This document shows positions 15,105 through 32,341 of a stretch of 42,630 nucleotides of DNA, in pieces. Source of the stretch: Planctomycetaceae bacterium (lineage in GTDB: Bacteria; Planctomycetota; Planctomycetia; Pirellulales; Pirellulaceae); contig SYJV01000121.1 in NCBI GenBank assembly GCA_005798335.1, positions 1-42,630 on the forward strand, read 5' to 3'. Under the pieces are notes generated by a model. That model was not told the DNA's origin. It worked only from the letters and a program-made list of their open reading frames with translations, and did no database searches. Position 1 is the stretch's first letter, and each line of letters begins with the position of its first letter. A program made the translations under genes and the position numbers.

Positions 15105-18100
15105 TTGCTCGACGGCGTCATTCAATTCTCACTGCGGAACCGCTCTCTCGTCGCCGTCGCTTCGCTTCTCGCGATGGTGGTTGGGATTACATTGCTGCGG
15201 TCGATGCCAGTGGATGTCTTTCCCGACCTAAATCGACCGACGGTCACCATTATGACCGAAGCTCCAGGCCTAGCACCTGAAGAGGTCGAAGTCTTAGTCA
15301 CCCGGCCAATTGAACTGCTACTCAATGGCGCTACCGGCGTAAAACGTGTTCGATCTTCGTCCGCGATTGGTTTGTCAATCATCTGGGTTGAGTTTGATTG
15401 GGGCACCGATATCTTTATCGATCGGCAAATCGTCACTGAAAAGCTGCAACTCGCGCAGTCGAAGCTTCCACCCCTCACCAATCCAGTCCTAACTCCCATC
15501 TCGTCGATCATGGGCGAGATAATGCTGTTGGCCTTGCGAAGTGACCGTCAACCCAAGTCACCAGAAGAAGCCGATGCGAAAGCGATGGAGCTGCGAACGT
15601 TGGGTGAGTTCACCGTCCGCAATCGATTGTTGGCTGTCGAAGGCGTTTCGCAAGTTTCCGTCATGGGCGGAATCCTCAGGCAATACCAGGTCGTCACTTC
15701 TCCCTCGCGATTGGCCGCTCGCAACATCACACTCGGCCAACTAACTGACGCGACAGCCAAAGCCAACGTTCTTGCTGGTGGTGGAGTGATGGAACGCGGT
15801 GACAGAGAATCGTTGCTGCGCATTCAAGGCCAATCGCTAACGCTCGAAGAGATTGCCGCTACACCCGTCGTTTGGCGCGAGCTAGTCCCGATTCGAATTC
15901 GCGACGTAGCCGACGTACGATTCGGAGGTCCGATCAAACGTGGCGATGCGTCTGCATTGGTAAAGATCGAGCCAGATGTGGACTTTGCTGTGACTCATCC
16001 TGCCGAATATGAAAAATTGAAAGAGGATACATCTGAAATGGATCGGCTATCGACGGCTGATCCTGACGATTCTCTAAAAAAAACCTATCGTGAGCTGCGC
16101 GGTGGTACCGCAGTCATGCTGACGATTCAAAAGCAACCGGACGCTGATACGCTCAAGCTTGATGGTCTTATCTCGACCGTTCTCCAATCGTTGCAACGGG
16201 AGCTTCCTGAAGATGTCAAAATTGAATCCGAAATCTTCCGTCAAAGCCACTTTATCGATGCCGCGGTGACGAACGTCAGTGAAGCCGTTCGCGACGGTGC
16301 CATTTGGGTCGTAGTCGTACTATTTCTCTTGATGGGGAACTTTCGCACAAGCATCAGTTCGCTCACCTCGATGCCGCTGTCGATCTTTCTAACCGTTATC
16401 GTCTTTTATATGCTAGGGATTTCGATTAACACGATGACATTAGGTGGTATTGCCGTCGCCATCGGAGACTTGGTCGATGATTCGATAGTGGATATCGAGA
16501 ACATCTCTCGACGACTCCGAGAGAACAAGCAGCTACCAATTGCATCGCAGAAGTCAGCAATCGACGTCATCTTCTCGGCATCGAGCGAGATCCGTAATTC
16601 GATAGTGTATGCGACGCTGATTGTGGTACTTGTGGTCGTACCTCTGTTCATGATGTCAGGTCTCGAAGGACGAATGTTTGCACCGCTAGGCATCGCTTAC
16701 ATTGTCGCCCTCTTATGTTCGTTAGCCGTGTCGTTGACCTTCACTCCGGTACTGGCAAGTTTCTTGCTTCCCAGCGCTCCCTTTCTGGCAGACAGGCGTG
16801 AACCAAGGCTCATGCGATGGCTCAAAGCAATCGCCGAAGTCGTTCTGCGCTGGACGTTGGATCGACCGAAACTCGTTCTTGCCTGTGTCGCGGTTTTGGT
16901 CTTGCTTAGCTGTGCAACGCTTCCATGGATGGGAGGTGAATTTTTGCCGCCATTCAACGAAGGGACCGCTACAATAAACCTGCGGCTTGAGCCTGGCACG
17001 TCGCTCGCCGAAAGCCAACGGCTTGCCAGTCGAGTGGAAAGCATCATCGTCGAAGTCCCCGAAGTTCTTTCGGTTGCGCGTCGAACGGGCCGCGCCGAGT
17101 TGGACGAACACGCGGAAGGAGTCAACAATACCGAATTCGAAGTCCGCTTCGCCGAACATAAAGTCGATAAGCCCGGTTGGTTCTATAGCGTTGTTCGCGC
17201 GATCCCCATCGCGCACCTGTGGGGTTTCGATTATCGTGGGCGTCCCCAAGCAGCTATTTTTGCCGACTTGCGAGATCGCATCTCCAACATTCCCGGGGCA
17301 GCCGTCAACATCGGCCAGCCTATCTCTCATCGCCTTGATCACATGATGTCCGGCATTCGAGCGCAGATCGCTGTGAAAGTGTTTGGGCCCGATCTGCGAG
17401 AACTTCGAACAGCGGCCTATGACGTACAGGCGCGGATGCAATCGATTAAGGGTGTCGTCGACCTTCAGATCGAACCTCAGATTGAGATTTCGCAGTTGCA
17501 AATGCGGGTGAAACGTGAGCAGGCGGCGCGATATGGTTTAGCACCAGGCGATGTGGCGGAACTGCTTGAAACTGCATTCAAGGGTCGCATCGTTTCGCAA
17601 GTGATCGAAGAAGACAAGTACTTTGGCTTGGTAGTTTGGTTCGACGAAGCTTCAAGACGTGCCCCCAGTGTCGTTGAAGAGACCATTCTCGATACGCCTT
17701 CGGGTTCCAAGGTGGCCTTGTCTCAAGTCGCCGAGGTTCTCGACACGACCGGGCCTAATATACTCAATCGAGAAAATGTTCAGCGACGCGTGGCTGTGTT
17801 CTGCAATGTACAAGGTCGCGACCTGACAAGTGTTGTCGCTGATATCAAAACGGCGCTTTGGCCAATCGAAGAGTCACTTCGGTCACTGTCGGGCGAATAC
17901 TATCTCGACTATAGCGGCCAATTCGAGGCTCAACGCGAAGCCACGAATCGGCTGTGGGGACTAGCTTGCTTGAGCATGATTGGCGTCTACTGGTTGCTTG
18001 TTAAAGCACTCGACTCGCAGAGATCAGCGATCCAGGTCATTGCCAACGTACCGCTCGCGGCGTTTGGTGCGATTATCGCCCTATTGATTGTAAACCGACC

Positions 18101-18518
18101 CAACTTGGCAGAACTCGCAGATCATGCATGGTACATTTGGCCGATCGTTTGGATACAATCCACGCATCTATCGCTTGCCCACTGGGTCGGTTTCATCACA
18201 CTGATCGGCATTGTCAGCCGCAACGGCATCATGATGATCTCTCACTACCATCACTTGATGGAACAGGAAGGGACGCCCTTCGGCAAAGAGATGATCATTC
18301 GTGGCAGCCTCGAACGACTAGCTCCCGTGATGATGACCGCCATGACGAGCTTTATCGGCTTGGTCCCATTGCTCTTCGGCTACGGCGAGCCTGGAAAAGA
18401 GATTCTCTATCCACTATCCGTCGTCCTCTTCGGTGGTATGCTTGCATCAACGCTTTTGGACCAGGTTGTAACCCCAGCCTTGTTCTATCTTGCTTATAAC
18501 GAAAAGACGTCGCAATAA
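15105..18518 (+). CDS. heavy-metal efflux RND pump (CzcA/CusA family)
   Basis: A 1137-residue inner-membrane proton-driven exporter for divalent or monovalent metal ions. The N terminus ([48 protein letters not shown]) is diagnostic of the HME-RND branch. Membrane segments occur around residues 10-30, 390-550, 600 and 950-1130; the TM4 relay region reads [17 protein letters not shown], with the acidic residues used for proton transfer. Near the C terminus, [20 protein letters not shown] matches the family. The start is TTG with GAGGT six bases upstream, four bases after the adaptor stop, so the two are translationally coupled. The metal cannot be fixed from sequence; a Cu/Ag versus Zn/Co/Cd choice remains open. 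Confidence 0.93.
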   Translation: [1137 protein letters not shown]

Positions 18519-18545
18519 GTTTGGCGCGTCGCGATAAGTTTGGCG
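18508..18545 (+). repeat. 19-bp tandem duplication at the pump gene stop codon
   Basis: CGTCGCAATAAGTTTGGCG (18508-18526) is followed directly by CGTCGCGATAAGTTTGGCG (18527-18545), one mismatch apart. The first copy carries the TAA stop of the RND pump gene. Confidence 0.85.
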
Positions 18546-18690
18546 TAGTGTGTCCTGCGATCATGACTTCAAATGGCACATTGTCCATTGCATCATTGCT
18601 GGCCGATCCCAGAATCCACTCGCTGCTAGATTTCTAAATGGAACGCTACGTGGATGAGTGCGGCTCTGTGCTCATTTGAAAAATGTGGAA

Positions 18691-21600
18691 TCACGAAGCT
18701 CGGGAGGACTCCATTTCCGCTAACAGTCGGTCGATTTCCTCTTCTGGCAAGTCGTCGATGCGCTCCAATAGTTCAGCCGACTCGGCGACAACAGTTGGTT
18801 CGGCGGGTTTGATTTCATCGAGTACCGGTTCGACGCTGGAAGCGCTTCGATCGATGTGTTTAAGAACTACGGCGGAAAGCTGATTCAACGAGGGGCCATT
18901 GAGAATCTCGTTCATTGGCAAAGCAATCCCGGCCTCTTTTTCGACGCGGTTTTTCAATTCCAAGGCCATTAACGAATCCAAGCCCATTTGCGTAAGTGGC
19001 GTATCGCGTTCAACCTGGCTTTCCGAAATACCAAACACCCCGGCGATCTGGGATGCAATGAAGCTTTGCATCAACCCAGAACGCTGATCTGCGGGTGCCG
19101 CCCGCAGCCGAACGGCCAACGAACCGCCGTTTTCGTTACTTCGAGACGAATGCATAATTCCAGTGAACGTAGACGATTCATTGATCACCGGAGCGATGGA
19201 AGGCAGCTTGGTCCAATCGATGCGCGCGGCGCTAATCTGAGCACAGTCGAGGAATCTGGCTCGACGAAAACTCTCGGTTGCCTCTTGCATGTTGAACGAG
19301 TCTAATCCGATCTTGTCGAGGTAATCCGCTGTCTTCTGATTGCGCTCGACAAAACCTGCGCCACGCAGTGCTCCCCAATCAATCGTAAGCGCAGGCAGGC
19401 CCAATGATCGTCGATGATGTGACAGTCCGTCCAGAAAATAATTTCCTGCGTTGTAATTGGCTTGCTTGGGAGCCCCAAACACCGAGGAGTAGGATGAAAA
19501 ACAGACGAAATCTTCCAGTGGCATCCTGCGCGTTGCTAGGTGCAGATTCCAACCACCTAGAATTTTGACGTCCAATGCCGACCTAAATCGCTCCGGTGTC
19601 AGCTCGGAAATAAAATCGTCGTCCAGTACCATGGCTCCATGCACGACTCCTACCAGCGGCGGCATCGACTGCGAGATTGTTTGAACAATCTGATCTACTT
19701 CATCCGCCACGGTGACATCTCCGCGCGCGTCGACGATGTTGATCCCTGCGGCTCGCAGTTGTTCGATTTCTTGACGCTCCGTGTCGCGCGGACCACTGCG
19801 GCTCATCAAGACCAAATGCCGTGCACCATGCTCCGCCATCTGTTTCGCCAATTCCCATCCAAATCCTCCAGCGCCGCCGGTAATAAGGTAGGTTCCGTTT
19901 GACCGAAATTCGCTGTGCGGATCGGAGTTAGGTCCGATCATCAAATTTGGATCGTCGAAGATGAGCACATTCTTGCCGATGTGCTTGCCCTGCGCCATGC
20001 GGCGGAAGGCTTCAACACATTGGCTGATTGGGAAACTGGTATATGGCAGCGGACGATAATGGCCCATTCGAATTTGCTCGGCAATTTCGGCAAACAGCTT
20101 ACCGGCATGCGTTTGCCGGCAAGCCAGATGTTGACCGAGGTCGATCACGAAATAGGAGATGTTGTCCTTGAACTGTCGCAGGCCAATTTTGGAATTGTTG
20201 TAGATGTCCATCTTGCCGATTTCGAGAAAGCGCCCATAGGGCGCCAGCAACTCGAAGCTCTTGGGAATGAAATCGCCAGCGAGCGAGTTTAATACCGCAT
20301 CCACTCCATAACCCTTGGTGACGTCTTTGATTTGATCAGCAAACTCAAGGGTCCTGGAGTTGAATACATGCTCTACGCCCTGCTCTCGCAGAAGCTGCCG
20401 TTTCTCGTCGCTGCCCGCCGTCGCAAAAATTTTCAACCCTAGTTGCTGGGCAATCTGAATCGCAGCTTGGCCAACGCCGCCGGTACCTCCGTGTATCAGG
20501 ATGCTCTCGCCTGCAACCATTCTCGCCAGATGATGAATCGCGTAATGTGCGGTGAGGAAAACAGTCGGCAACGTCGCCGCCTGTTCAAATGTCATCGAAT
20601 CGGGCAGACGGAAAACCAATCGAGCATCGACGACTGCATAAGACTGGAAAGCGTACGGAGCCATACCCGCCACGCGATCGCCTATCTTCGCTTGGGTTAC
20701 GTTGGAACCCACGGCGACCACCGTGCCTGCAAAGTCGTCTCCGTACCAACGCACATCGATTGGATTGCCTGGATAGGTCCCCAGAGCTTTCATTACGTCG
20801 CGGAAGTTGATTCCTCCAGCGTGAACTTGAACCTCAATTTCATCAGGCCCAAGTTGTCGCCGAGCAGTCTCTCTCCACTGTAAATTGGTGAGAATTCCCT
20901 CGCCTCGGCTCTCTAATCGGAAAGCGGGATACGAACTGATGGATTTGCGAACAGGAGTCCGGCGCCCAGGGAGTTCGTCAAGTCGTACATACCCAAGTTG
21001 ATTAGTAAATCTTTGGCCACCGCGATAGGCAACTTCCAGATCTTGGTGATCTGTCGTCAGCTCAGAAAGCAATGCGTCGGCATTGTCACTTGTCCGGCCT
21101 GTCCCTACATCGATTAAGTAGGCTCGACGCGGATAAAATTCGTTGTTAGCGACCCTGAGGAAACCTACCAGTGGCGAAGCGGCCACTCCACTGCATTGAT
21201 CTTCGGCGGAAATGGCAAATACGCTATCCACCAGCACCCATACGTTTGATGGTCGTTGCTCACACTTGACCAGCGCCAGGACGCTCAGCACTCCCTGCGC
21301 CTGCGAGCGGCTCAACTGATCGGTGGTCAATTCTTCCGCGCCAGGCGTGTCCAAGCTCCAGGCATGAATCGCTCCCGACACGGATTGCACTTGACTGTGG
21401 ATTGCTGCGAATAAATCGACATAATGCTGGGGGTCTGCAGGATTGATAATAAATTGATTTCGCGAACTCGCGACGAAAGATGAACCGGGAAATACGCGAA
21501 TGATATTTGAACCCCGTGCTTGTAACTGATTACAAAGCCGCTCGGCCAATCCGCTCTGATCGACGAAGACGACGTACGTCGAGCTATCTTGTCGGGGCGA

Positions 21601-24600
21601 TTCCACCATGTTTTCGACCAGCGGTCCGCGCGCCAAGAAAGTGACTTGCGTAGCTTCAGATACGGTGATCGACGGGGACAGTGATACAGCCTGTGAGAAT
21701 CCGCAATCGGTCAATAACTTCAACCACTGCGTGCGATCTAGCAGCGGAGATTTTTCCCGCAACTCAGCATCTGAGAATTTCCACCAGCCATCAAGTAAGC
21801 CAAACACCAAGTTCTCGACATAGGTCATGCGCGCCATCGTTTCGACAAACAGGAGCATTCCATCGCTGGCCATGCAACGTCGCAAGTTGGTCAACGATTT
21901 CGCCACATCACTGGTTGCGTGCAGGACATTCGTAGCGACGATCAAATCGAAGGCATGGGCCGCAATGCCTTGGGGCTGAACGTCCTTTTCGATGTCCAGC
22001 ACGTGATAATCTACGAAGGGAAATTCGCTAAGCACCGACTTTGCGGATGATAGGAAACCCGCACCCACATCGGTAAATGTGTATTCTGTCCTTTCGGCGG
22101 GAAACGCCGACAGAATTGTTCGCGTAAGTGAGGCCGTGCCGCCACCGACTTCCAATACTCGGATGGCCCGTGACTGCGGCAAACTGCCGATCGCGGATTG
22201 CAGCAGTTTGCGAATCTGCTCGTGAATTCGCACAAGATCGTTGGCGCGCGTGTAGAAGTTGCTCATCAATTCCGAGGAACCGCCTGGGAACAGCAGTTGG
22301 ACCGGATCGACATCGCCACAGAGCACCGACGCCAAATTAGATGCTGCGCGACGAATGAGTTGTAGCTCAGCGTCGTAGCCGTATTGTTCACCAAGATCAT
22401 CGAGGCTGGATAATATGTTACTTTTGGTCGGCGCGGCAATGACTTCCCATTTCGTATCGTCGACTTGCCGCAACCAACCTGCATGTACCAGTTGCCTGAG
22501 CTGGGAATCAAGCAGCCGTTCAAACTTGGGGACAATGTGTAACTCGGCAAGCAACTCACGGGTCGAAAAGTGGTTTCCGAGGCTGGGCTTCCAACCGAGA
22601 TCCAGATAGGCGTTTGCCAAAATGTGAGGCACAACTGCATTGATCTGGGGAACAAACCCTTGATAGTATTCGAGACCTCCTGTGTCGTCGTTCAACGTCG
22701 CCACGGACTGCTGAAGTTCGGCCACTAACGATGGATTATCGGGAAAGTTACAGGTCCCCGTAGTCTGAGTTCCCTTGAGTCGCTTTGGGTTCCACGACGT
22801 TTGATAAAAACATTCTTCCAGGGACGTCGACGATTGAGTTTGGGGTGCCCATTCCGAACGAAATCCTCGAATGTCAGCAATTGGACTGCCGGTCTCGGTC
22901 AACAAACGCAGATCGATTTCGACCATGTTCGGTTCGTTCACGATCATATGCCCAGCGGCGATCAATCGGGTGCCGGGCTGGATATTGCGAGTTCCGTTGG
23001 GCTCCCACAATTGCACCCGGCGAATGCTCTTGGGCAAGAAAAAATTCTCGGACGCAATGGGGCTGGCAGTGCGTGTCAAGGCGGACAATTGAAAACATGC
23101 ATCGAGTATCGAAGGATGCAGGTGGAACTCTCCGGCGCTGTTGTAGATCGCTGCGGTGGCTTGAATCCAACCGATTACTTCGCCGTTTTTCTTGCGAGCG
23201 GATTCCAGCAATTGAAAATTCGGTCCAAACTGAAATCCAGCTCGACGGAACTCCTCGCTGATTTCCTCCCGCGATAGCTCTTCCGGTAGACGCGAAACGA
23301 CGCCATCAAGATCCAGTTTTTCAGATCTCTCAGTCGTCATTGGCAGTAGTTGGCCGGTCGCGTGCAATTCCCAGTCGAGTTTGCTTCTGGTGCGGCCGTA
23401 AATAGAAAAAGTCTTGCTCTCATGCGACCAAGTTGTTTGCAACAAGGGCGGATCCTTGGATGCAACAAAGAGAGCTTTGTGAAACGCCAAGTTTTCGACG
23501 ACCAATTTTTCGTTGGGGAACAATGTTCGCGCGACAGCTAGCCCAATCTCGGCGTAGCCTGCGCCGGGGAATACCACGAGGTCCCACAACTGATGATCGG
23601 CCAAGAATGGATGTCGATGCAAGTCCAGCTCGATGGTCCACGTTGGTAACGCTTCTGCCGAGCGAATCCCCAACAACGGATGGTCTGGCGCCGCCAGTCG
23701 CGCGCGGCGGGACTGTTCGGTTTCTAACCAAAACGATTCGTGATTCCAGGCGTATTTGGGAAGTCGTTCCGGTGCATTTGAGCTTCGGTTGACGGCTGGC
23801 CAGTCGATGGTGAAACCATCCAAATGTAAGTAAGCCAGGTTACTCAGAACTTCGTCCGACTCATCACTCTCGCGGCGTAATGAGTGCAGAACCAATCCAT
23901 TGCGTTGGGTCGCCGAATTGCATTCGCGCAGCGACGTCGCCAGCGCCGGATGGGGGCCAATCTCAAGAAAGTTACAGGCCTGATTCTTCAACATCTCGAT
24001 AATAGTCGGCCCAAACATGACCGGCTCGCGCACATTGCGCCACCAGTATTCTCCGTTCAATTCCGGTCCATCAAGCGCACCCGAGGTAACCGTCGAGTAA
24101 AAAGGAACGGCAGCGATTCGAGGTTGAATATTCTTGAGAACATCGATCAACTCTTCGCGAATGGGTTCCATTTGATGCGTGTGAAACGCATAATCGATCG
24201 GTAGCCAGCGAAGAAAGCGATTCTCGGCTTGGAATCGTTCGGCAATTTTTTCCAAGGGGCATCTATCGCCCGACAATGTTACCAAGTTGGGATTGTTGAT
24301 GACGGCGACCTGAACAAAATCGCGGTCGAGCCCAATCGCGGCCTCGGCTTCGGAGGCTGAGATGCCCACTACCAGCATGCGACCTTTGCCGCCGGTCGTA
24401 TGCTGTAACCGACTGCGGTGATAAATGATCTCAACCGCATCTTCCAACGAGTAAATGCCAGCACAGAACGCGGCCGCTACTTCACCCACGCTGTGTCCGA
24501 TCACTTGGTTGGGTCGAATGCCCCAGCTTGCCCACAGCTCAGTCAACGCAACTTGCAACGCGAATATCGCCGGTTGCGCAATGTCGGTACGATCAATTTC

Positions 24601-26400
24601 GGAGTGCTCGCAATCCGAACAAATCTTGTCGAGCAAAGACCAACCGCTCAGTGGGCTAAGCAAACGATCGATTGATTCTAGCCGATCGCGGAAAATCGGC
24701 TCACGTTCCAGCAGTTGTTGGCCCATTGCCCACCACTGCGCGCCCTGCCCCGTGTAAACGAAAGTCAAATTCTTGATCGACTTGCTGGGGCGCCCCGCAA
24801 CAACCCCTTTCACTTGATCGGCTCCTGCCAACCAAGCCGCGATTCGTCGCTGAAGTTGCGTGCGATCTTTGCCGAATACTACCAACCGCCGTTCATGATG
24901 CTCTTTGCGATTGCCCGCCGAAGTACAGAACTCAGCGAGTCTTACCGATGGATCACTCAAACGTTGAAGAAAAGACTCGGCGCAACTGCGCAAGGCGGTA
25001 TCATCCTTGGCGGAAATGGGCAGTACAAAATTGTGCTCGTCAGAATCGCCGTTCTCATCCGACACGCAAGCCGGAGCACAGGGAGTGGACTCTAGGACCA
25101 CATGCGCGTTTGTGCCGCCGAATCCAAAGGAGTTGACACCTACGACTGGCCCTTCGCCTACAGGCTGCGGCAGAGGTTGGGTACTTGCGGCGACTCGTAA
25201 CGACAGCGTATCGAAGGGGATATTCGGATTCGGTTGCTCGTAGTTCAAACTCTTGGGGACTGTTTTATGATGGAGCACCAACGCCGCTTTGATCAACCCT
25301 GCGATGCCCGACCCGGACTCCAGATGCCCGATATTGGTTTTGACGGACCCGATCAGAATGCGATCCTCGGCCTTGCGTCCCGCTCCAAGTACACGACCCA
25401 AGGCAGTCAGTTCAATAGGATCTCCGACCGGTGTGCCGGTACCGTGCGCTTCGATGTAAGCGATTCTACGGATATCGATGTTGGCCATCTGATAGGCTTT
25501 CCGCAGCATCGCCGATTGGCCTTCGACTCCGGGAACCGTCATCGATGAAGTATGGCCATCCTGATTCGCCGCAGCTGCTCGAATAACCGCGTAGATTTGA
25601 TCGCGGTCGGCGAGCGCCTGAGGCAAGGGTTTGAGGTAGATCACGCCGACGCCTTCGCCACGAACGTAACCATTGGCGCGGGCATCGAAGGCGTAACACT
25701 GGCCGCTCCGCGAAAGCATCGATGCTCGACTAAAGCCGACCGATGCATGGGGCGTAATCAGTGCGTTCACTCCGCCGACCAAGCTAGCCGAACATCGACC
25801 GGACCACATGCTTTCGCAGGCGAGCCACACGGCAACCAACGACGACGAGCATGCCGTATCGACAGATAAACTTGGGCCCTTCAGATCTAACATGTATGAA
25901 ATGCGGTTGGACGCGATACTAGCTGTATTGCCACTGTTGGTATACGCATCAACTATTTCATGATAGGGGACTTGGAGACAACCATAATCATTAGCCGAAA
26001 TGCCAACGAAGACTCCGACATCTTGGCCGCGCAATTTGCTCGGTGGCGTGCCGCCGTCCTCGAGAGCTTCCCAAGCAACCTCCAGCAACAATCGTTGCTG
26101 CGGGTCCATGCGCATCGCTTCGCGTGGCGAGACGCCCCAAAATCGAGCATCAAATTTATCCAAGTCCTGAATAAATCCGCCCCACTTCGTAATGATCGAA
26201 TCAAGGCACTCGGGGTCCGGATGAAAAAAACGTTGGTTGCTCCATCGATCCTCCGGAACCTCACGTACCCCAGATCGACCGGAGCACAGCAACTGCCAAA
26301 ACGACTCAGGATCGACAACATTACCCGGCAGACGGCAACCAATTCCAACGATAGCAATTGGAAACGGCGTCGCCACGGGTACGCTCAATTCGCTTTTCAA
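18691..26400 (-). CDS. highly reducing iterative-type type I polyketide synthase
   Basis: A 2569-residue single-module megasynthase. Domains in order: KS ~13-440 (Cys184 in DTACSSS, His319 in EAHGTGT, Lys354/His359 in KTNIGH); AT ~545-850 (Ser637 in GHSVGE, YAFH 737-740); DH ~905-1190 (His936, Asp1100); C-methyltransferase ~1260-1580 (SAM loop LEVGGGTASLT 1416-1426); noncatalytic KR-like spacer ~1600-1800; ER ~1820-2150 (HGGTGGVGQAA 1970-1980); KR ~2165-2400 (GGAGGFG 2175-2181, Tyr2316, Asn2320); ACP ~2440-2515 (Ser2476 in GLDSL). This order matches fungal-style reducing iterative synthases. There is no thioesterase or reductase end. The start is a TTG without a good ribosome site; no ATG lies upstream in frame before the KS. 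The product is unknown, probably a reduced, methyl-branched chain. Confidence 0.93.
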   Translation of the reverse strand: MKSELSVPVATPFPIAIVGIGCRLPGNVVDPESFWQLLCSGRSGVREVPEDRWSNQRFFHPDPECLDSIITKWGGFIQDLDKFDARFWGVSPREAMRMDPQQRLLLEVAWEALEDGGTPPSKLRGQDVGVFVGISANDYGCLQVPYHEIVDAYTNSGNTASIASNRISYMLDLKGPSLSVDTACSSSLVAVWLACESMWSGRCSASLVGGVNALITPHASVGFSRASMLSRSGQCYAFDARANGYVRGEGVGVIYLKPLPQALADRDQIYAVIRAAAANQDGHTSSMTVPGVEGQSAMLRKAYQMANIDIRRIAYIEAHGTGTPVGDPIELTALGRVLGAGRKAEDRILIGSVKTNIGHLESGSGIAGLIKAALVLHHKTVPKSLNYEQPNPNIPFDTLSLRVAASTQPLPQPVGEGPVVGVNSFGFGGTNAHVVLESTPCAPACVSDENGDSDEHNFVLPISAKDDTALRSCAESFLQRLSDPSVRLAEFCTSAGNRKEHHERRLVVFGKDRTQLQRRIAAWLAGADQVKGVVAGRPSKSIKNLTFVYTGQGAQWWAMGQQLLEREPIFRDRLESIDRLLSPLSGWSLLDKICSDCEHSEIDRTDIAQPAIFALQVALTELWASWGIRPNQVIGHSVGEVAAAFCAGIYSLEDAVEIIYHRSRLQHTTGGKGRMLVVGISASEAEAAIGLDRDFVQVAVINNPNLVTLSGDRCPLEKIAERFQAENRFLRWLPIDYAFHTHQMEPIREELIDVLKNIQPRIAAVPFYSTVTSGALDGPELNGEYWWRNVREPVMFGPTIIEMLKNQACNFLEIGPHPALATSLRECNSATQRNGLVLHSLRRESDESDEVLSNLAYLHLDGFTIDWPAVNRSSNAPERLPKYAWNHESFWLETEQSRRARLAAPDHPLLGIRSAEALPTWTIELDLHRHPFLADHQLWDLVVFPGAGYAEIGLAVARTLFPNEKLVVENLAFHKALFVASKDPPLLQTTWSHESKTFSIYGRTRSKLDWELHATGQLLPMTTERSEKLDLDGVVSRLPEELSREEISEEFRRAGFQFGPNFQLLESARKKNGEVIGWIQATAAIYNSAGEFHLHPSILDACFQLSALTRTASPIASENFFLPKSIRRVQLWEPNGTRNIQPGTRLIAAGHMIVNEPNMVEIDLRLLTETGSPIADIRGFRSEWAPQTQSSTSLEECFYQTSWNPKRLKGTQTTGTCNFPDNPSLVAELQQSVATLNDDTGGLEYYQGFVPQINAVVPHILANAYLDLGWKPSLGNHFSTRELLAELHIVPKFERLLDSQLRQLVHAGWLRQVDDTKWEVIAAPTKSNILSSLDDLGEQYGYDAELQLIRRAASNLASVLCGDVDPVQLLFPGGSSELMSNFYTRANDLVRIHEQIRKLLQSAIGSLPQSRAIRVLEVGGGTASLTRTILSAFPAERTEYTFTDVGAGFLSSAKSVLSEFPFVDYHVLDIEKDVQPQGIAAHAFDLIVATNVLHATSDVAKSLTNLRRCMASDGMLLFVETMARMTYVENLVFGLLDGWWKFSDAELREKSPLLDRTQWLKLLTDCGFSQAVSLSPSITVSEATQVTFLARGPLVENMVESPRQDSSTYVVFVDQSGLAERLCNQLQARGSNIIRVFPGSSFVASSRNQFIINPADPQHYVDLFAAIHSQVQSVSGAIHAWSLDTPGAEELTTDQLSRSQAQGVLSVLALVKCEQRPSNVWVLVDSVFAISAEDQCSGVAASPLVGFLRVANNEFYPRRAYLIDVGTGRTSDNADALLSELTTDHQDLEVAYRGGQRFTNQLGYVRLDELPGRRTPVRKSISSYPAFRLESRGEGILTNLQWRETARRQLGPDEIEVQVHAGGINFRDVMKALGTYPGNPIDVRWYGDDFAGTVVAVGSNVTQAKIGDRVAGMAPYAFQSYAVVDARLVFRLPDSMTFEQAATLPTVFLTAHYAIHHLARMVAGESILIHGGTGGVGQAAIQIAQQLGLKIFATAGSDEKRQLLREQGVEHVFNSRTLEFADQIKDVTKGYGVDAVLNSLAGDFIPKSFELLAPYGRFLEIGKMDIYNNSKIGLRQFKDNISYFVIDLGQHLACRQTHAGKLFAEIAEQIRMGHYRPLPYTSFPISQCVEAFRRMAQGKHIGKNVLIFDDPNLMIGPNSDPHSEFRSNGTYLITGGAGGFGWELAKQMAEHGARHLVLMSRSGPRDTERQEIEQLRAAGINIVDARGDVTVADEVDQIVQTISQSMPPLVGVVHGAMVLDDDFISELTPERFRSALDVKILGGWNLHLATRRMPLEDFVCFSSYSSVFGAPKQANYNAGNYFLDGLSHHRRSLGLPALTIDWGALRGAGFVERNQKTADYLDKIGLDSFNMQEATESFRRARFLDCAQISAARIDWTKLPSIAPVINESSTFTGIMHSSRSNENGGSLAVRLRAAPADQRSGLMQSFIASQIAGVFGISESQVERDTPLTQMGLDSLMALELKNRVEKEAGIALPMNEILNGPSLNQLSAVVLKHIDRSASSVEPVLDEIKPAEPTVVAESAELLERIDDLPEEEIDRLLAEMESSRAS

Positions 26401-26785
26401 GGTTGAATTATCCAGTTTGGAAATAGTTTGGAGCCAATTGACCGCTATTACTGACGTGTTGAACGGCGAATTTCCAACAAATTATTCCGTTCATAGTAGT
26501 TACCATAATGCCGTGCTCAACTTCGAATTACGGGTATTTGCGTAGCTTGGTATACTTAGGCATTTTATGGCGATTGTTAAGCTTGTGTGCGTCTAGGAAA
26601 CTTAGCTGAAAAGCAGTGTGCGCACATGCCGATGCGCAAAGTAGTTCCGGAGATGGAGATGAAGGGCCTGAACCTCTGCCATGCAGATCCTTGCGATCGA
26701 GTGGTTGGGGACTAGCCTTGCGGAACGGCCATTTTGTGTGCGTTTGCTCCGCATACTCACCCTAAACCAGTACTGGCGAAGCAGG
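26401..26785. other. 385-bp intergenic region between divergent PKS and SppA-like genes
   Basis: This gap should carry the promoters of both divergent genes. It is AT-richer than the flanking coding sequence near 26400-26580. I see no palindrome, repeat or RNA motif in it that I can support. A plus-strand frame from 26681 continues into the SppA-like gene, but its first 35 codons lack homology. Confidence 0.5.
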
Positions 26786-27835
26786 ATGCGCGCTTGTCGG
26801 GGATTGACTAGTTTACAAATCGTGGCGCTTGCGGTAGCAGCGATTGGCTGCCGCTCACCGATGGAAGTCTGCACGAACGGCTTGATGCGTGTGCGAGTCT
26901 CTCCGGTCAATGACAACAGCGTTTCTCCGGTATCTGCCAGGATTTTGCCGGGCACTCGCAATTCTTGCAACTTTCGAGTAGCACTCATCGACATCGACGG
27001 AGTGTTGTTGAATAAGAATGTACAAGTATTGATGACGAACGGCGAAAACGCGGTCTCCATTTTTCGCGAGAAACTTGACGCTGCTGCAAAGGATCCTCGC
27101 GTTGTTGCGGTGCTGTTGCGTATCAATAGCCCCGGCGGTGGAGTGGCAGCGTCCGATATGATGCGACGCGACTTGCTAGATTTCAAACATCGCAAGAACA
27201 TCCCAATCGTAGCTTGCTTGATGGACGTTTCCGCTGGCGGGGCCTACTACATCGCCACGGCAGCCGACCGAATTGTCGCACACCCAACGACAATCACCGG
27301 AGGTTTGGGAGTGATCTTGAACCTCTACAATTTGCAAGACACTCTGGCGCAATTCAATGTGCAATCGCAACCCATCAAAGCCGGAGAGCGAATTGACTTG
27401 GGAACTCCCGTAAAACCGTTGCCCCCCGAATCCAAAGCAATTCTACAGAAAATCGCCGATGAATTTGGGGCTCGTCTGCAACAGACGATCACACAAACTC
27501 GTCAACCACACAACATCAAGGACGCGGACCTCTTCGACGGTAGAATTTTTTCTGCCAGCCAAGCTCTAGAAATTGGATTAGTCGATGATATCGGGTATTT
27601 GGACGATTCGATTGCAGTGGCTGAACAACTGGCAGGCGTAGAAGGTCGTACATCCGTGGTGATGTACCGGCGCGACACCGATCGAGCCTTGACTCCGTAT
27701 GATATTACTCCCAATTTGCCGGTACTCAATTCCATAATGCCATTGAGCATCCCTGGAATGGATCGTAGCCAGTTGCCGACCTATCTTTATATGTGGCAAC
27801 CTGAGCCTCTGTTGGAAAAGAACGGCGGTACTTGA
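26786..27835 (+). CDS. S49 SppA-like lipoprotein, probable pseudoprotease
   Basis: A 349-residue protein of the signal peptide peptidase A (S49, ClpP-fold) family. ATG 26786 gives a lipoprotein signal ending at Cys22 (AVAAIGC). Family blocks are VVAVLLRINSPGGGVAAS (~107-123), MDVSAGGAYYIATAADRIVAH (~146-166) and TGGLGVILNLYNL. In SppA the nucleophile is Ser of AASGGYY and the base is Lys of SGxYKD; here the aligned positions are Gly151 (SAGGAYY) and Ile203 (AGERID). Both catalytic residues therefore seem absent, although a Ser (149) lies two residues earlier. It precedes a permease gene by 134 bases. A scaffold or regulatory role is inferred. Confidence 0.8.
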   Translation: MRACRGLTSLQIVALAVAAIGCRSPMEVCTNGLMRVRVSPVNDNSVSPVSARILPGTRNSCNFRVALIDIDGVLLNKNVQVLMTNGENAVSIFREKLDAAAKDPRVVAVLLRINSPGGGVAASDMMRRDLLDFKHRKNIPIVACLMDVSAGGAYYIATAADRIVAHPTTITGGLGVILNLYNLQDTLAQFNVQSQPIKAGERIDLGTPVKPLPPESKAILQKIADEFGARLQQTITQTRQPHNIKDADLFDGRIFSASQALEIGLVDDIGYLDDSIAVAEQLAGVEGRTSVVMYRRDTDRALTPYDITPNLPVLNSIMPLSIPGMDRSQLPTYLYMWQPEPLLEKNGGT

Positions 27836-27969
27836 TTGTCGCTCGCGTCCATCGAGCCGGCTCTGGCAATCGCCAAGAGTCGCTCGACTGGTGTTTGGCT
27901 AGGTTGGAACTATCATAGACCACTCGCCTGGGAGTGCTGATCGTTGAGAGTTATTGGAATTGCCAAACC

Positions 27970-29100
27970 ATGAATTTTGGAACTTTAGTTTGGAAGAACT
28001 TGATTCGTCGGCCAGTCCGTTCTGGGCTGACAATTTTTGCGGTCGCGATTTCGATCGGTTGTGTTGTCGCCTTGGTCGGAGTAGCCAGCGGATTCAAACG
28101 TGCTTTTCAGAGTTTGTATGAAACCAAAAATCTTGATTTGATCGTAGTTCGAGCTGGGCAAGGCCAGCGATTGGCCAGTACCTTGGATATTTCATTGGCA
28201 GAAAAGATCCGAGCAATTCAAGGTGTGCGACATGTTTTTCCAGCACTGGTAGATGTGATTTCCTTTGAGGAACAGGGAATCTACGGTGTCGTGACCCAGG
28301 GATTGATAATGGAACCGATGGTCGCGGCCTCGTTTAATGTTGTCGAAGGCCGAGCGCTGAGCCTACGCGATACTAAATCACTGATGCTGGGCGCCATTCT
28401 GGCTAAGAACCTGGGCAAGAAATTGCATGACAAAGTCGAGATATATGAGAATGAGTTTTTTGAAGTGGTCGGGATCTTCGACAATCCCAACGTATTCGAA
28501 AACGGTTCGATGGTGATTCTCTTAGAGGAGATGCAGCGACTGCTCGATCGGCCCAAACACGTCACGGGCTTCAGTGTGGAACTCGAGCCCGGCGATAAAG
28601 AAAAGTCCATTGAACGTGTACGGCATGAAATTGAAGCGGCTGCGCCCGGACTTTCTGCCATGCCGATTCGTGAGCATGCCGATTCGCTGACGGAGCTGCG
28701 TGCTGCGGCCGCAATGGCGTGGCTCACGTCGGTCCTGGCGCTGTTGATCGGAACCGCTGGCGTGCTAAATACGATGTTAATGTCAGTATTGGAACGGACC
28801 AAAGAAATCGGTATTTTCCGAGCGATCGGTTGGACCGCTACGCAAGTGGTACAAATGATCCTTGCCGAAGCAATGATGTTAAGTATGCTGGGCGCGATGT
28901 TGGGTACCATCGGTGCACTCGTGTTGGTCAAACTGTTGACCAAACTGCCGACGGCCAGCGGATTTGTCGACGGATATATTCCACCAATGGTGATCGGGCA
29001 AGGATTTTTGATAGCCTTGCTGATCGGTTTCATCGGCGGTTCGTTCGCCGCACTCAGCGCCGCTCGATTGTTGCCCACCGCAGCGTTACGGCACGAATGA
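27970..29100 (+). CDS. ABC transporter permease, MacB/FtsX type
   Basis: A 376-residue inner-membrane permease. The N terminus (LVWKNLIRRPVRSGLTIFAVAISIGCVVALVGVASG) holds one membrane helix, followed by a periplasmic MacB-PCD-like domain (~45-240) and a C-terminal FtsX domain with three helices (~265-376; MAWLTSVLALLIGTAGVLNTMLMSV, EIGIFRAIGWT). The length and 1+3 topology fit the MacB/LolCE-type mechanotransmission group. The matching ATPase is probably the minus-strand gene ending at 30147, which is an odd convergent arrangement since the pair is usually one operon. ATG 27970 is preferred over 27934, which adds 12 unconserved residues. Confidence 0.88.
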   Translation: MNFGTLVWKNLIRRPVRSGLTIFAVAISIGCVVALVGVASGFKRAFQSLYETKNLDLIVVRAGQGQRLASTLDISLAEKIRAIQGVRHVFPALVDVISFEEQGIYGVVTQGLIMEPMVAASFNVVEGRALSLRDTKSLMLGAILAKNLGKKLHDKVEIYENEFFEVVGIFDNPNVFENGSMVILLEEMQRLLDRPKHVTGFSVELEPGDKEKSIERVRHEIEAAAPGLSAMPIREHADSLTELRAAAAMAWLTSVLALLIGTAGVLNTMLMSVLERTKEIGIFRAIGWTATQVVQMILAEAMMLSMLGAMLGTIGALVLVKLLTKLPTASGFVDGYIPPMVIGQGFLIALLIGFIGGSFAALSAARLLPTAALRHE

Positions 29101-29253: not shown

Positions 29254-30150
29254 TCATTGTTTTTCCGCAGCCGCCAGTTTTCTGCGGAAAGTGCGAATTT
29301 GTTCTTGAATTGCTATGGGTAGTTTGGATCGCAACAAGTTTGCGCCGCGAAACCAACCTTCGGGTTCATGAAAAACAACGTGCGCTTCGATCAACAAAGC
29401 GCCGGCAGGTTCGCTTAACTGCGTTGCGGCAAGATATCCACCGAATCCAATATAAGGTTGATGAGGACCAAGACTTGGCTTTTCCGTACCATTGTCGGCG
29501 ATCGACTGCCAGCGATTTGCTAGAGCGCTGATGCTGGCGAAACGATCATCGAGCAGTGAGCTGACCATCATTTGATCCTGTGTGACAGTTTGCCAGGTAT
29601 GTACGACACCGCTTACTAAAACTCGATCTAGAAGAGGTGACGAAAAACTCGCAAAGCCCTCGCGCTCGGTTTCGGATTCCAACAGTTTGACTCCCAGCTT
29701 CTCCAACATATCCGGTGTCACCTCACCGCCTTCGGCACGATAAGCTGACTTTGTTTCGGCATCGGCAGTTGCGGCCAATTCGTCCAGCAGTTTCTTGTCG
29801 CGCAAAGTTGCTAACTTGCCGTAGGCGACGAACCACACATCAACTTTCTGCGCATATCGCTTTTCATCCGAAGTCGTTAGGCTTTCCATTTTCAGATTAA
29901 AGGGAGCGACCGGCGATGGTCGAAGGAATTCCTCCAGCAATCGATCACCAGCAGCACTGGTGAGAATTCGCTGGATTTCGTTTTTGTCGGATACGGCGCG
30001 CGGAGTCGGCGCGATTAATGGCACTCGCTTGCCTTCAACAACTTGCACGCCAGGCGAAACTAAGTCGCGCAGAATCGGATCATCGCCCCACAGCACTGCC
30101 GGTCGTAATACGATCACTAACGTGATCAGCGCTACGAAAACTCGCATCAT
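29254..30150 (-). CDS. secreted protein of unknown function linked to an ABC ATPase
   Basis: A 298-residue protein with a Sec signal peptide (VFVALITLVIVLRPAVLWG). The mature region is mixed alpha/beta; recognisable but unnamed blocks are KVDVWFVAYGKLATL near residue 100, a helical stretch of ~40 residues, and a PYIGFGGYLAATQL-EPAGALLIEAHVVFHEPEGWF segment near 235-275. No catalytic motif is apparent. The start overlaps the ABC ATPase stop in an ATGA arrangement, so the two are translationally coupled and probably act together. It may be a periplasmic partner of that transporter; this is inference from position. Confidence 0.7.
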   Translation of the reverse strand: MMRVFVALITLVIVLRPAVLWGDDPILRDLVSPGVQVVEGKRVPLIAPTPRAVSDKNEIQRILTSAAGDRLLEEFLRPSPVAPFNLKMESLTTSDEKRYAQKVDVWFVAYGKLATLRDKKLLDELAATADAETKSAYRAEGGEVTPDMLEKLGVKLLESETEREGFASFSSPLLDRVLVSGVVHTWQTVTQDQMMVSSLLDDRFASISALANRWQSIADNGTEKPSLGPHQPYIGFGGYLAATQLSEPAGALLIEAHVVFHEPEGWFRGANLLRSKLPIAIQEQIRTFRRKLAAAEKQ

Positions 30151-30857
30151 GAAGTCCTTTCGTTGCCCGTTCGCATTTCATCCGAGATAATTCTGCCATC
30201 CCGAAACATAATAACGCGATCAGCGCGGCTGGCGACTTCTTGAGTATGCGTCACCACCACCAAAGTCATGCCACGTTCGCGCCGCAAACGATCGAACAAA
30301 TCCAAAATATCCGCGCCCGTTTTCGTGTCGAGATTTCCAGTCGGTTCGTCGGCCAACATGATTGGCGGGTCGTTCGCAAGTGCTCGGGCAATCGATACTC
30401 GCTGGCGTTCTCCGACCGAGAGCCTGCTGGGCAAATGCGTTTTGCGATGACTCATACCGACAACATCCAATAATTCGCTGGCGACGCGAGCTCTTTCAGC
30501 GGGCGAACGATGCCCGTGAAACATGGGAATTTGTACGTTTTCAATCGCAGTAAATGTTGGCAACAGATGAAAAGATTGAAACACAAAGCCAATTTGCTCG
30601 TGGCGATATCGATCCAACGATGGCCACTGTGCTAACGGTTGGCCTCGAAAATAGACAACCCCAGAAGTAGGTTCGTCTAAACCACCGAGTACGTTCAGCA
30701 ACGTAGATTTCCCGCTGCCGCTCGGTCCCATGATCGCCAAAAATTGTTCGGCAGGTACCTGCAAGTTTACGTTGACCAGCGCACTGACGCTGCCGTCCGG
30801 GTAGACCTTATTCAAATCTTCCGTGCACAGAATATTAGATGGGGTTGCTGCAGACAA
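30147..30857 (-). CDS. ABC transporter ATP-binding protein, MacB/LolD type
   Basis: Predicted 236-residue ATPase subunit. It shows the A-loop region LNKVYPDG, Walker A GPSGSGKS (~44-51), Q-loop FQSFHLLP, signature LSVGERQRVSIARAL, Walker B IMLADEPTGNLD and H-loop VTHTQEVA, all typical of MacB/LolD/FtsE-type ATPases pairing with MacB/FtsX permeases. The frame is open far upstream to 31310, but everything before ~30857 is palindromic repeat and non-homologous sequence. TTG 30857 gives the usual family length; a CTG at 30830 or an upstream start are alternatives. Its likely permease partner lies convergently at 27970-29100. The stop overlaps the next gene by four bases. Confidence 0.85.
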   Translation of the reverse strand: MSAATPSNILCTEDLNKVYPDGSVSALVNVNLQVPAEQFLAIMGPSGSGKSTLLNVLGGLDEPTSGVVYFRGQPLAQWPSLDRYRHEQIGFVFQSFHLLPTFTAIENVQIPMFHGHRSPAERARVASELLDVVGMSHRKTHLPSRLSVGERQRVSIARALANDPPIMLADEPTGNLDTKTGADILDLFDRLRRERGMTLVVVTHTQEVASRADRVIMFRDGRIISDEMRTGNERTS

Positions 30858-30893
30858 TGGATTGCTCGGCTGGAGAATTGAACGACTAGTGCT

Positions 30894-31025
30894 ATGTCGC
30901 AACCAAATTTCGGGGCAGCGGAAGCCGTCAAGGCTTTCGTACTTTCGTTCAATACTGATGGGGGTTCGAAGGACTGATTCGAAAGCCTTGACGGCTTCCG
31001 CTGCCCCAAAATTTGGTTGCGACAT
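30894..31025 (+). repeat. MITE-like inverted repeat with 46-bp arms
   Basis: The arms 30894-30939 and 30980-31025 are inverted copies with one mismatch (ATGTCGCAACCAAATTT... outwards, GGAAGCCGTCAAGGCTTTCG inwards), separated by 40 bases. TGCT occurs directly outside both ends (30890-30893 and 31026-31029), a possible 4-bp target duplication. It has no gene of its own. It lies just upstream of the ABC ATPase start. Confidence 0.88.
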
Positions 31026-31147
31026 TGCTAGAGCCAAAACAACAATAGCCCAGAGGTGCAGAAAATCAAGTCCCAGCGCTCCGACCACCCCAACAGAGCC
31101 GGCAACCACACAGAAAGGACTGCGTATCCTGCACGGCGCTACCATGT

Positions 31148-32341
31148 TTAGAATTCCACGCGACAGCCACCGATATAAGTTTGAGCAACATAAAGTTTGG
31201 TGTCCAGAATAACCAGGTCGGCGCGTTTTTGAGCGGTCAGACTTCCCAATTGATGGTCGTATCCAGCGATTCGCGCGGGAGTTAGCGTGGCCATACGAAT
31301 AACTTCCCAAAGTGGTCGATCGGTTAGTTTCGCGAAGGTTCTGATCATGTAATCCATGCCCACGCAGCTCGATGCCAACGCCGTACCATCAGGCATCAAG
31401 CCCACATTATCGCGCTTGATTAACGGCTCGCCTCCTTGCAACGGACCAATGACGTAGTTTCCGTCCGGCATATCCAGTGCGCGGCTAGTATCAGTGACTA
31501 GCGCCAGTCGATCGGCCCCTTTGATTTTGAGCGCCAGCAGCAGCAAGCTACTGTCCAGATGCTTGCCATCGGCGATGACTTCAGTCGTTAATTCATCGAA
31601 GTACAAAGTTGCCTCGAGAACACCGCCTTGCATCGGGTAGAGCTGAAATTGACGCAGCCGCCCTTTGTCGGACATCGCACAGAATAGGTGATCTACATGC
31701 CTCACGCCCCAGCCGATAGCTTCTTGCATTTGGGCGAACGTGGCCCACGAATGACCGACGTTGGTGCGCACGCCCTTGGCGCGACAAGCTAACGCGAACT
31801 CGCGAGCCCCTTCGATTTCTGGCGCCACGGTGGCGGTGACCAAGTCAGCCGCAAAGTTCAGATACTCTGAGAATTCTCGCTCGATCGCCGGCCGAATCGG
31901 CCCGCCTGGATGAGCTCCGCGAGCTTCGTAGCGAAAGTAAGGACCATAAAAATGCGCGCCCAGCACGCGCGCGGCATTGGGTTCGGAATTCATGCGAAAC
32001 GCGCGAGTTTGTTCCAATGTCGCGAGAATCTGTGCGTGCGTCGCCACGGTCGTGGTAACCGCCATGCTCGTCGTGCCATGCCGTGCATGGCAGCGCAGTG
32101 CGGTGCGGAATGCATCTGCGGTTCCATCCATGAAATCCGCTCCAGCGCCACCATGCACATGCAGGTCGACAAAGCCAGGAGTTATGAATCCTTCCGGAAC
32201 GTCGACCAAAGTTTCCGCCTGAGGAATCAATTTATTGTAAGGCCAGATCTCTTGGATGATTTCATCGCGAATCACCAAAATTCCTGGCGCAATGCGATCT
32301 GGATAAACTAGCTGTCCTCGAAAAAAAGTCGTAGCAGACAT
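31148..32341 (-). CDS. nagA: N-acetylglucosamine-6-phosphate deacetylase-like amidohydrolase
   Basis: A 397-residue NagA-family metal hydrolase, expected to remove acetate from GlcNAc-6-phosphate in amino-sugar breakdown. An amidohydrolase barrel starts with ITPGFVDLHVHGGAG (His61, His63), followed by TLE-type helices, VRTNVGHSWA (His197), VDHLFCAM (His218) and the catalytic Asp284 in LVTDTS. The C terminus has the TPARIAG and KRADLVILD blocks of the family. Unusually, the metal-binding Glu of the HLEGP motif is replaced: residues 130-134 read HFYGP. ATG 32341 is preferred over 32383, since the first 14 residues look noncoding. It sits downstream of a GH-like gene and a GntR regulator on the same strand. 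Confidence 0.82.
   Translation of the reverse strand: MSATTFFRGQLVYPDRIAPGILVIRDEIIQEIWPYNKLIPQAETLVDVPEGFITPGFVDLHVHGGAGADFMDGTADAFRTALRCHARHGTTSMAVTTTVATHAQILATLEQTRAFRMNSEPNAARVLGAHFYGPYFRYEARGAHPGGPIRPAIEREFSEYLNFAADLVTATVAPEIEGAREFALACRAKGVRTNVGHSWATFAQMQEAIGWGVRHVDHLFCAMSDKGRLRQFQLYPMQGGVLEATLYFDELTTEVIADGKHLDSSLLLLALKIKGADRLALVTDTSRALDMPDGNYVIGPLQGGEPLIKRDNVGLMPDGTALASSCVGMDYMIRTFAKLTDRPLWEVIRMATLTPARIAGYDHQLGSLTAQKRADLVILDTKLYVAQTYIGGCRVEF

Follow-up and report, generated by a model that had tools for sequence, protein, structure and literature searches.

The gene described here encodes a real, intact, bacterial single-module PKS, which falls within a planctomycete-Verrucomicrobia clade of single-module enzymes. 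What is new is the loss of in-cis release, together with a docking-like tail, in a member of this clade. The best-supported reading, whose chances we regard as about even, is that this iterative, fully reducing synthase has lost the release part that its relatives carry in the same chain, and docks to an NRPS that releases the product in trans.

Domain Architecture and Active Sites

The window, by which we mean the whole stretch of DNA analyzed, is the complete contig C47 (42,630 bp) of an 8.46-Mb genome in 558 contigs. Its type I PKS gene (18691..26400, minus strand) has a TTG start and encodes 2569 aa, within an open frame that spans 2596 aa and contains no internal stops. Pfam places the domains, from N- to C-terminus, in the order KS-AT-DH-cMT-psiKR-ER-KR-ACP, in agreement with the earlier note, which had described a one-gene synthase of this organization. 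Scores above cut-off were obtained for ketoacyl-synt (312.8 bits), Acyl_transf_1 (243.5), and KR (212.2), and likewise for PKS_DH_N and PS-DH, Methyltransf_12, Beta-ketacyl_N, ADH_N and ADH_zinc_N (the ER), and PP-binding.

The KS domain with its C-terminal extension (aa 14-491; 24928..26361, on the minus strand like all the domains that follow) contains Cys184, His319, and His359, and the AT domain (aa 546-862; 23815..24765) contains Ser637 and the motifs GHSVGE and YAFH, which by the motif rule we take to be of the malonyl type. The DH domain (aa 907-1184; 22849..23682) has His936 and Asp1100, the KR domain (aa 2169-2346; 19363..19896) has an LDD motif and the expected Ser and Tyr, and the ACP (aa 2448-2511; 18868..19059) has GLDSL with Ser2476. 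These KS, AT, DH, KR (Ser/Tyr), and ACP residues are identical in all 53 clade rows compared, one gene being present twice among them (L105 and L178). The ER domain (aa 1824-2147; 19960..20931), recognized by Pfam and used as the probe for relatives, is judged by its glycine-rich cofactor motif, which is intact. KS, AT, DH, ER, KR, and ACP thus occur in one chain with key residues present (the cofactor motif in the case of ER), as in a highly reducing single-module cis-AT PKS.

The C-methyltransferase region (aa 1240-1600; 21601..22683), whose top PDB match is CurJ, is followed by a psi-KR-like region (aa 1610-1820; 20941..21573), in which a Beta-ketacyl_N match (aa 1617-1712) is read as psiKR. 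The claim that active-site residues are visible extends in part to the cMT: its catalytic pair His1494 and Glu1520 is kept (among relatives, His in 45 and Glu in 44 of the 53 rows, six rows being gapped there). The SAM loop of the window and of its nearest relative, L063, however, is GGGTA, vs. GAGTG in most relatives. As this loop is atypical, methylation is unsure.

Bacterial Rather Than Fungal Kinship

Fungal highly reducing PKSs have the order KS-AT-DH-cMT-(ER)-KR-ACP, and the window PKS matches it in its form with ER. The description "fungal-style" therefore stands for domain order, but not for kinship. Against PDB, the KS scores highest with 7zma (669 bits, over two KS stretches), followed by CurL (455), PikA1 (452), several further bacterial entries, Pks13 (389), MAS (380), psoA (335), and LovB (321), and the cMT region scores 224 bits with CurJ, 118 with citrinin PKS, and 86 with LovB. 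We take CurL, CurJ, and PikA1 to be bacterial, and psoA, LovB, and citrinin PKS to be fungal. Because both KS and cMT score higher against the bacterial enzymes, the window PKS is non-fungal by closest sequence kinship, and a fungal origin was rejected on these scores, the KS tree described below containing no fungal row. Nor does it classify as a PUFA synthase, as it reaches 355 bits with the PfaA model vs. a curated cut-off of 1010; in the NCBIfam search, none of the best 25 of 153 matching models reached its cut-off.

Single-Module Relatives in Planctomycetes and Verrucomicrobia

Named genomes were scanned for relatives with an ER alignment, and the best 80 matches represent 79 loci. Among these, 59 loci have ~60-76% ER identity, while 20 actinobacterial loci have 38-42%. 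All but two of the 59 (57) are titled planctomycete or Verrucomicrobia, the remainder being Anaerolineales and Gammaproteobacteria. Of the 241 Pirellulaceae genomes, 29 have matches that pass E 1e-90, and in 16, counting that of the window, ER identity reaches 56% or more.

A KS tree was built by a quick method from 86 of 142 sequences, with SH-aLRT as its only support measure and with no hglE or MIBiG row taken in. In this tree the window pairs with L063 (SH-aLRT 100), nested in a 30-row clade (SH-aLRT 100) that includes one MAG titled Anaerolineales (L109). The genome's other long type I PKS, on contig C155, has the organization KS-AT-DH-ER-KR-ACP, bears a tail, and adjoins a C-A-PCP-TE NRPS; PKSs of this C155 type form a separate nine-row group (SH-aLRT 100) inside the same larger, weakly resolved group. 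The actinobacterial modular KSs are far from the window. A place in a modular assembly line, which according to the earlier note would overturn its reading, is thus not what the KS phylogeny gives, and the PKS is a single module, with neither adjoining modules nor a KS in the actinobacterial modular group. The flanking sequence retrieved for the clade loci likewise showed no second PKS module, many of these loci being on short contigs.

The nearest relative, L063 (uncultured Pirellula sp., CAIOHR010000235.1), is 60% identical (1527 of 2558 aligned positions) and has the same domains up to the ACP and the same cMT loop change. Unlike the window PKS, it has a C-terminal TE and a co-directional gene set encoding GH3, an epimerase, and MR/MLE.

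Some features of other clade loci are recorded here in their own right. The MR/MLE enolase-family gene recurs near clade PKSs in two phyla (L063:15737-16915, and upstream in L068, L071, L073, L085, and L107). The clade PKS at L047:4841-19720 is flanked by an MMPL gene and by FemAB-like, LPG-synthase-like, and methyltransferase genes. Clade PKS-TR genes (L172, L175, L178, and L181) repeatedly have genes for stand-alone condensation-type proteins and glycosyltransferase-like genes as neighbors, which hints at glycolipid or ester products (Pfam for L172 only). The clade genes L068:4553-16573 and L082:5577-14266 are each in two ORFs, through frameshift or assembly error.

Release Regions Are Fused in Relatives and Absent from the Window PKS

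Of 54 named clade members with an ACP, nine are cut after the ACP by contig ends and 45 are complete. Every one of the 45 continues for at least 309 residues after the ACP, vs. ~49 in the window PKS. Release domains were assigned by BLAST, with pieces of proteins from the window, G013, G020, and G022 and of the genome's own NRPSs as references: C-A-PCP plus a terminal domain in 34, C(like)-TR in five, TR in three, and C-A-PCP-TE, TE, and C only in one each. Fused members include L113 and L105, from the cultured bacteria Rhodopirellula rubra and Aporhodopirellula aestuarii, respectively. Nine further Pirellulaceae clade members are also fused (TR, C-TR, or C-A-PCP-TE), and the window PKS is the sole complete clade member found without a fused release region (45 named and nine Pirellulaceae).

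The claim that in-cis release is missing is upheld: when TE, TR, C, and A sequences were used as tblastn probes, neither a remnant nor a release domain was found after the ACP, and a frameshifted or decayed release domain past the stop was rejected on the best E-values, which were 0.046 (17901-18760) and 0.21 (whole window). From the PKS to the end of the convergent AcrB gene is a distance of 172 bp. A linked release gene, which would also have spoken against the earlier note, is absent from the 42,630-bp contig as judged by an ORF Pfam scan and the tblastn probes. The window PKS has probably lost in-cis release, although, taken jointly with iterative, fully reducing use and NRPS docking in trans, this is a reading that we hold at about even strength.

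In the 34-member class, the terminal domain (~400 aa, in Verrucomicrobia relatives) has a Pfam match limited to a piece of a carrier domain. Aligned in 27 members (L095:15194-16543 and 26 relatives), this PKS-NRPS domain matches the solved carmabin-pathway domain 9e4s, which it resembles structurally, and more weakly an acyl-ACP reductase. It is therefore of a known kind, and the idea that it is new was dropped.

A Docking-Like C-Terminal Tail

The earlier note had the protein end at the ACP, which is not the case: it continues for ~49 residues and ends in a helical-looking tail, LLERIDDLPEEEIDRLLAEM, resembling the tails of C155-type PKSs of its genus. The tail as delimited here (aa 2541-2569, SAELLERIDDLPEEEIDRLLAEMESSRAS; 18694..18780, minus strand) is docking-like, with two short helices modeled at low confidence. 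AlphaFold, given 10 aligned carrier-tail stretches, predicted a confident ACP fold, a loose or disordered linker, and two tail helices with pLDDT of ~50 (first) and 65-68 (second).

A regular expression drawn from the C155-type and window tails after seeing them has 10 matches in a list of 248, corresponding to eight distinct PKS C-termini, as window and C155 are counted twice. It matches 16 of 20,000 shuffles and no post-ACP linker among the 54 from the clade, tails that face non-NRPS partner types having been sampled narrowly. It misses G014 and G011, whose tails are near variants, and the first PKS of G021, which is followed by a further PKS gene. An NRPS gene comes next in six C155-type loci (the genome's own C155, G014, G011, G001, G007, and G005) and after the second PKS of G021. 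In two genomes PKS and NRPS are unlinked (C3 and C1 in G006, C48 and C142 in G013), these NRPSs being 52 and 51% identical to that of C155, respectively. The window PKS has the tail pattern of such split PKSs, by an expression drawn post hoc, but its next gene is the convergent AcrB rather than a cognate NRPS. Taken together, the tail's sequence and modeled helices suggest that it is of the docking type.

Candidate Partners and Neighboring Genes

The label "orphan" does not hold genome-wide. The genome searches that the earlier note had proposed, for a PPTase and for release-type enzymes, found two PPTase-family genes (C418 and C118, the latter of Sfp-like length) and, beside the second PKS and NRPS-TE on C155, an NRPS-TR on C153 and a stand-alone condensation-type enzyme of 470 aa (G000:C205). 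The window PKS has no physical or genetic link to either the C155 or the C153 NRPS. Contig C153 (L061; 8 kb) encodes an NRPS of the order C-PCP-C-A-PCP-TR and no PKS; between the contig edge and the NRPS are 288 bp that contain no long frame. As an observation in its own right, this NRPS begins with a C-PCP module that lacks an A domain, and it ends in a thioester reductase. In a C-domain tree, where its placement is weak, its first C domain stands apart from the PKS-fed C domains of the clade and of the C155 type, and its listed family matches are 31-40% identical; on these grounds C153 was rejected as a clear partner. The C155 NRPS, for its part, already has its own adjoining PKS, which counts against docking in trans. 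Two other candidates were set aside: a GH3 enzyme like that beside L063, for which the genome search gave no match, and C205 as a specific partner, its family (128 of 241 Pirellulaceae genomes) being too common.

Divergent from the PKS is an S49-family peptidase gene (26681..27835, plus strand), followed by a MacB/FtsX-type ABC permease gene recognized by Pfam (27934..29100, plus strand) and an ABC transporter ATPase gene (30147..31310, minus strand) that may encode a partner of the permease. The convergent AcrB, an RND pump, also passes the MMPL model (21.7 vs. 20.5 bits). HlyD and AcrB neighbors, known from Pfam alone, were set aside as product exporters. The S49 peptidase has one own-genome match at E 1e-60 and matches in eight of 14 further genomes from the same genus. 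Five sister genomes (G007:C748, G014:C5, G011:C665, G006:C3, and G013:C48) have S49 homologs (49-52%), a MacB-type permease, and a C155-type PKS directly next to one another; there the MacB homolog lies between S49 and PKS, while the window order is instead PKS, S49, MacB. In G002, S49 and MacB reach the start of the contig, the G005 locus is truncated where its contig ends, and G004 has no MacB in the adjacent 1 kb. The C155 PKS-NRPS is on its own contig without S49 or MacB. This synteny ties the window locus to the C155-type system, short of proving a shared pathway. As the earlier note had stated, no recognized release or tailoring gene adjoins the PKS, with the correction that homologs of S49 flank another PKS in sisters. 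S49 and MacB homologs with C155-type PKSs may form an export or maturation cassette.

Other Explanations for the Missing Release Region

One alternative, which we consider unlikely, is that C205 moves the chain to an alcohol, in the manner of MAS and PapA5, so that the product would be a lipid ester and not a lipopeptide. Like the window PKS, MAS is fully reducing and is not known to have a release domain; unlike the window PKS, it is not known to have a cMT. MAS (9d2z) is also the best PDB match of the whole window protein, and C205 matches Pfam Condensation above cut-off (32.2 vs. 30.6 bits), the WS/DGAT and PapA5 models staying under theirs. MAS is reported to be offloaded by PapA5 and to take methylmalonyl-CoA (PMC5064953), whereas the window PKS is read as malonyl-type. 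C205-related enzymes adjoin clade PKSs in G161, G164, G168, and G186, but these copies are 28-30% identical, C205 itself is unlinked to the PKS, and its family occurs in 128 of 241 Pirellulaceae genomes vs. 16 of 241 for the clade PKS (at least 56% ER identity). Release by C205 would moreover leave the tail unexplained.

We regard as quite unlikely a fatty-acid synthase for capsule or envelope, comparable to RkpA/WcbR or Swf, whose chain would serve an envelope lipid or polysaccharide and be released by an unrecognized hydrolase or reductase. Paraburkholderia has a single PKS gene of similar size in a capsule-type cluster, Sulfitobacter has one that adjoins an MMPL gene, and the convergent neighbor of the window PKS is AcrB with its MMPL match. 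Swf is described as mono-modular and compared with RkpA/WcbR (PMC3908369). The window KS, however, is in a different clade from the Paraburkholderia and Sulfitobacter rows, and no capsule genes were seen by Pfam among the 21 window ORFs.

It is very unlikely that the gene is decaying, its release part lost and its enzyme non-productive. This would fit a sole complete clade member without a release region and a changed cMT SAM loop, but the 2569-aa frame and the active-site residues are intact, GC3 is 0.58 vs. 0.51-0.61 in four neighbors, a split-PKS-type tail occupies the place of the lost part, and the loop change is common to the TE-bearing L063.

That the gene is one module of a dispersed assembly line is scarcely credible: the tail might also dock to a KS, but the C155 PKS, with its own NRPS, is the sole other long frame among KS matches in the genome (the other six are in frames of 415-452 aa), and the KS tree places the window apart from the modular group.

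Proposed Mechanism and Comparison with Known Systems

In release by an NRPS in trans, the reading preferred here, the single module would probably be used iteratively to build a chain, presumably saturated fatty-acyl, from malonyl-CoA on its own ACP; given an active cMT, the chain would bear methyl branches derived from SAM. The C-terminal tail may then dock to an NRPS partner, and the finished chain would pass in trans to a condensation domain, either that of the C155 C-A-PCP-TE or that of the C153 C-PCP-C-A-PCP-TR. The product would be an N-acylated amino acid or a short lipopeptide, possibly exported by the neighboring MacB-type system. More speculatively, the clade may swap off-loading parts freely (C-A-PCP-reductase, C-A-PCP-TE, C-TR, TR, TE, or bare C), in parallel with fungal PKS-NRPSs, the window PKS having changed from a fused to a split form through acquisition of a docking tail; the window and C155 PKSs might share one NRPS and give two acyl variants of the same lipopeptide, a tentative idea that we would sooner doubt than adopt.

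The question raised is whether a PKS that has lost its release domain reuses an NRPS encoded at a different locus. Within the clade, release-domain exchange can be followed in natural examples of the states before and after, which are useful for enzyme engineering, and gene-cluster tools based on neighborhood would overlook unlinked PKS/NRPS pairs.

Among the matches listed in our literature search, no recognizable study of the window PKS gene was found. With the fungal enzymes LovB (7cpx) and psoA (9x29) the window PKS has its domain order in common, but they match its KS and cMT more weakly than bacterial enzymes do, and fungal PKS-NRPSs have the order PKS-C-A-PCP-reductase in common with the fused clade relatives. 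A 2023 survey reports that Verrucomicrobia, Planctomycetes, and other phyla share a clade of monomodular KSs in which no member has been characterized (PMC10308959). This "PTM-like" clade (a set of 379 sequences, to which the window clade is likened by description alone) resembles the window PKS in consisting of single-module cis-AT/iterative PKSs from the same phyla with no MIBiG member (PMC10308959). PTM synthases themselves are KS-AT-DH-KR-ACP-C-A-PCP-TE, to which the window PKS adds cMT and ER and from which it lacks C-A-PCP-TE (PMC10308959). Docking via C-terminal tails and crosstalk between non-cognate PKSs and NRPSs have both been described (PMC9113145; PMC13324335). The tail is comparable to PAX-type docking domains, which have a two-helix C-terminal part on the carrier protein, and whose L72/L76/L84/L88 spacing (4-8-4), picked post hoc, can be mapped onto the window tail as L, I, I, and L (PMC9113145).
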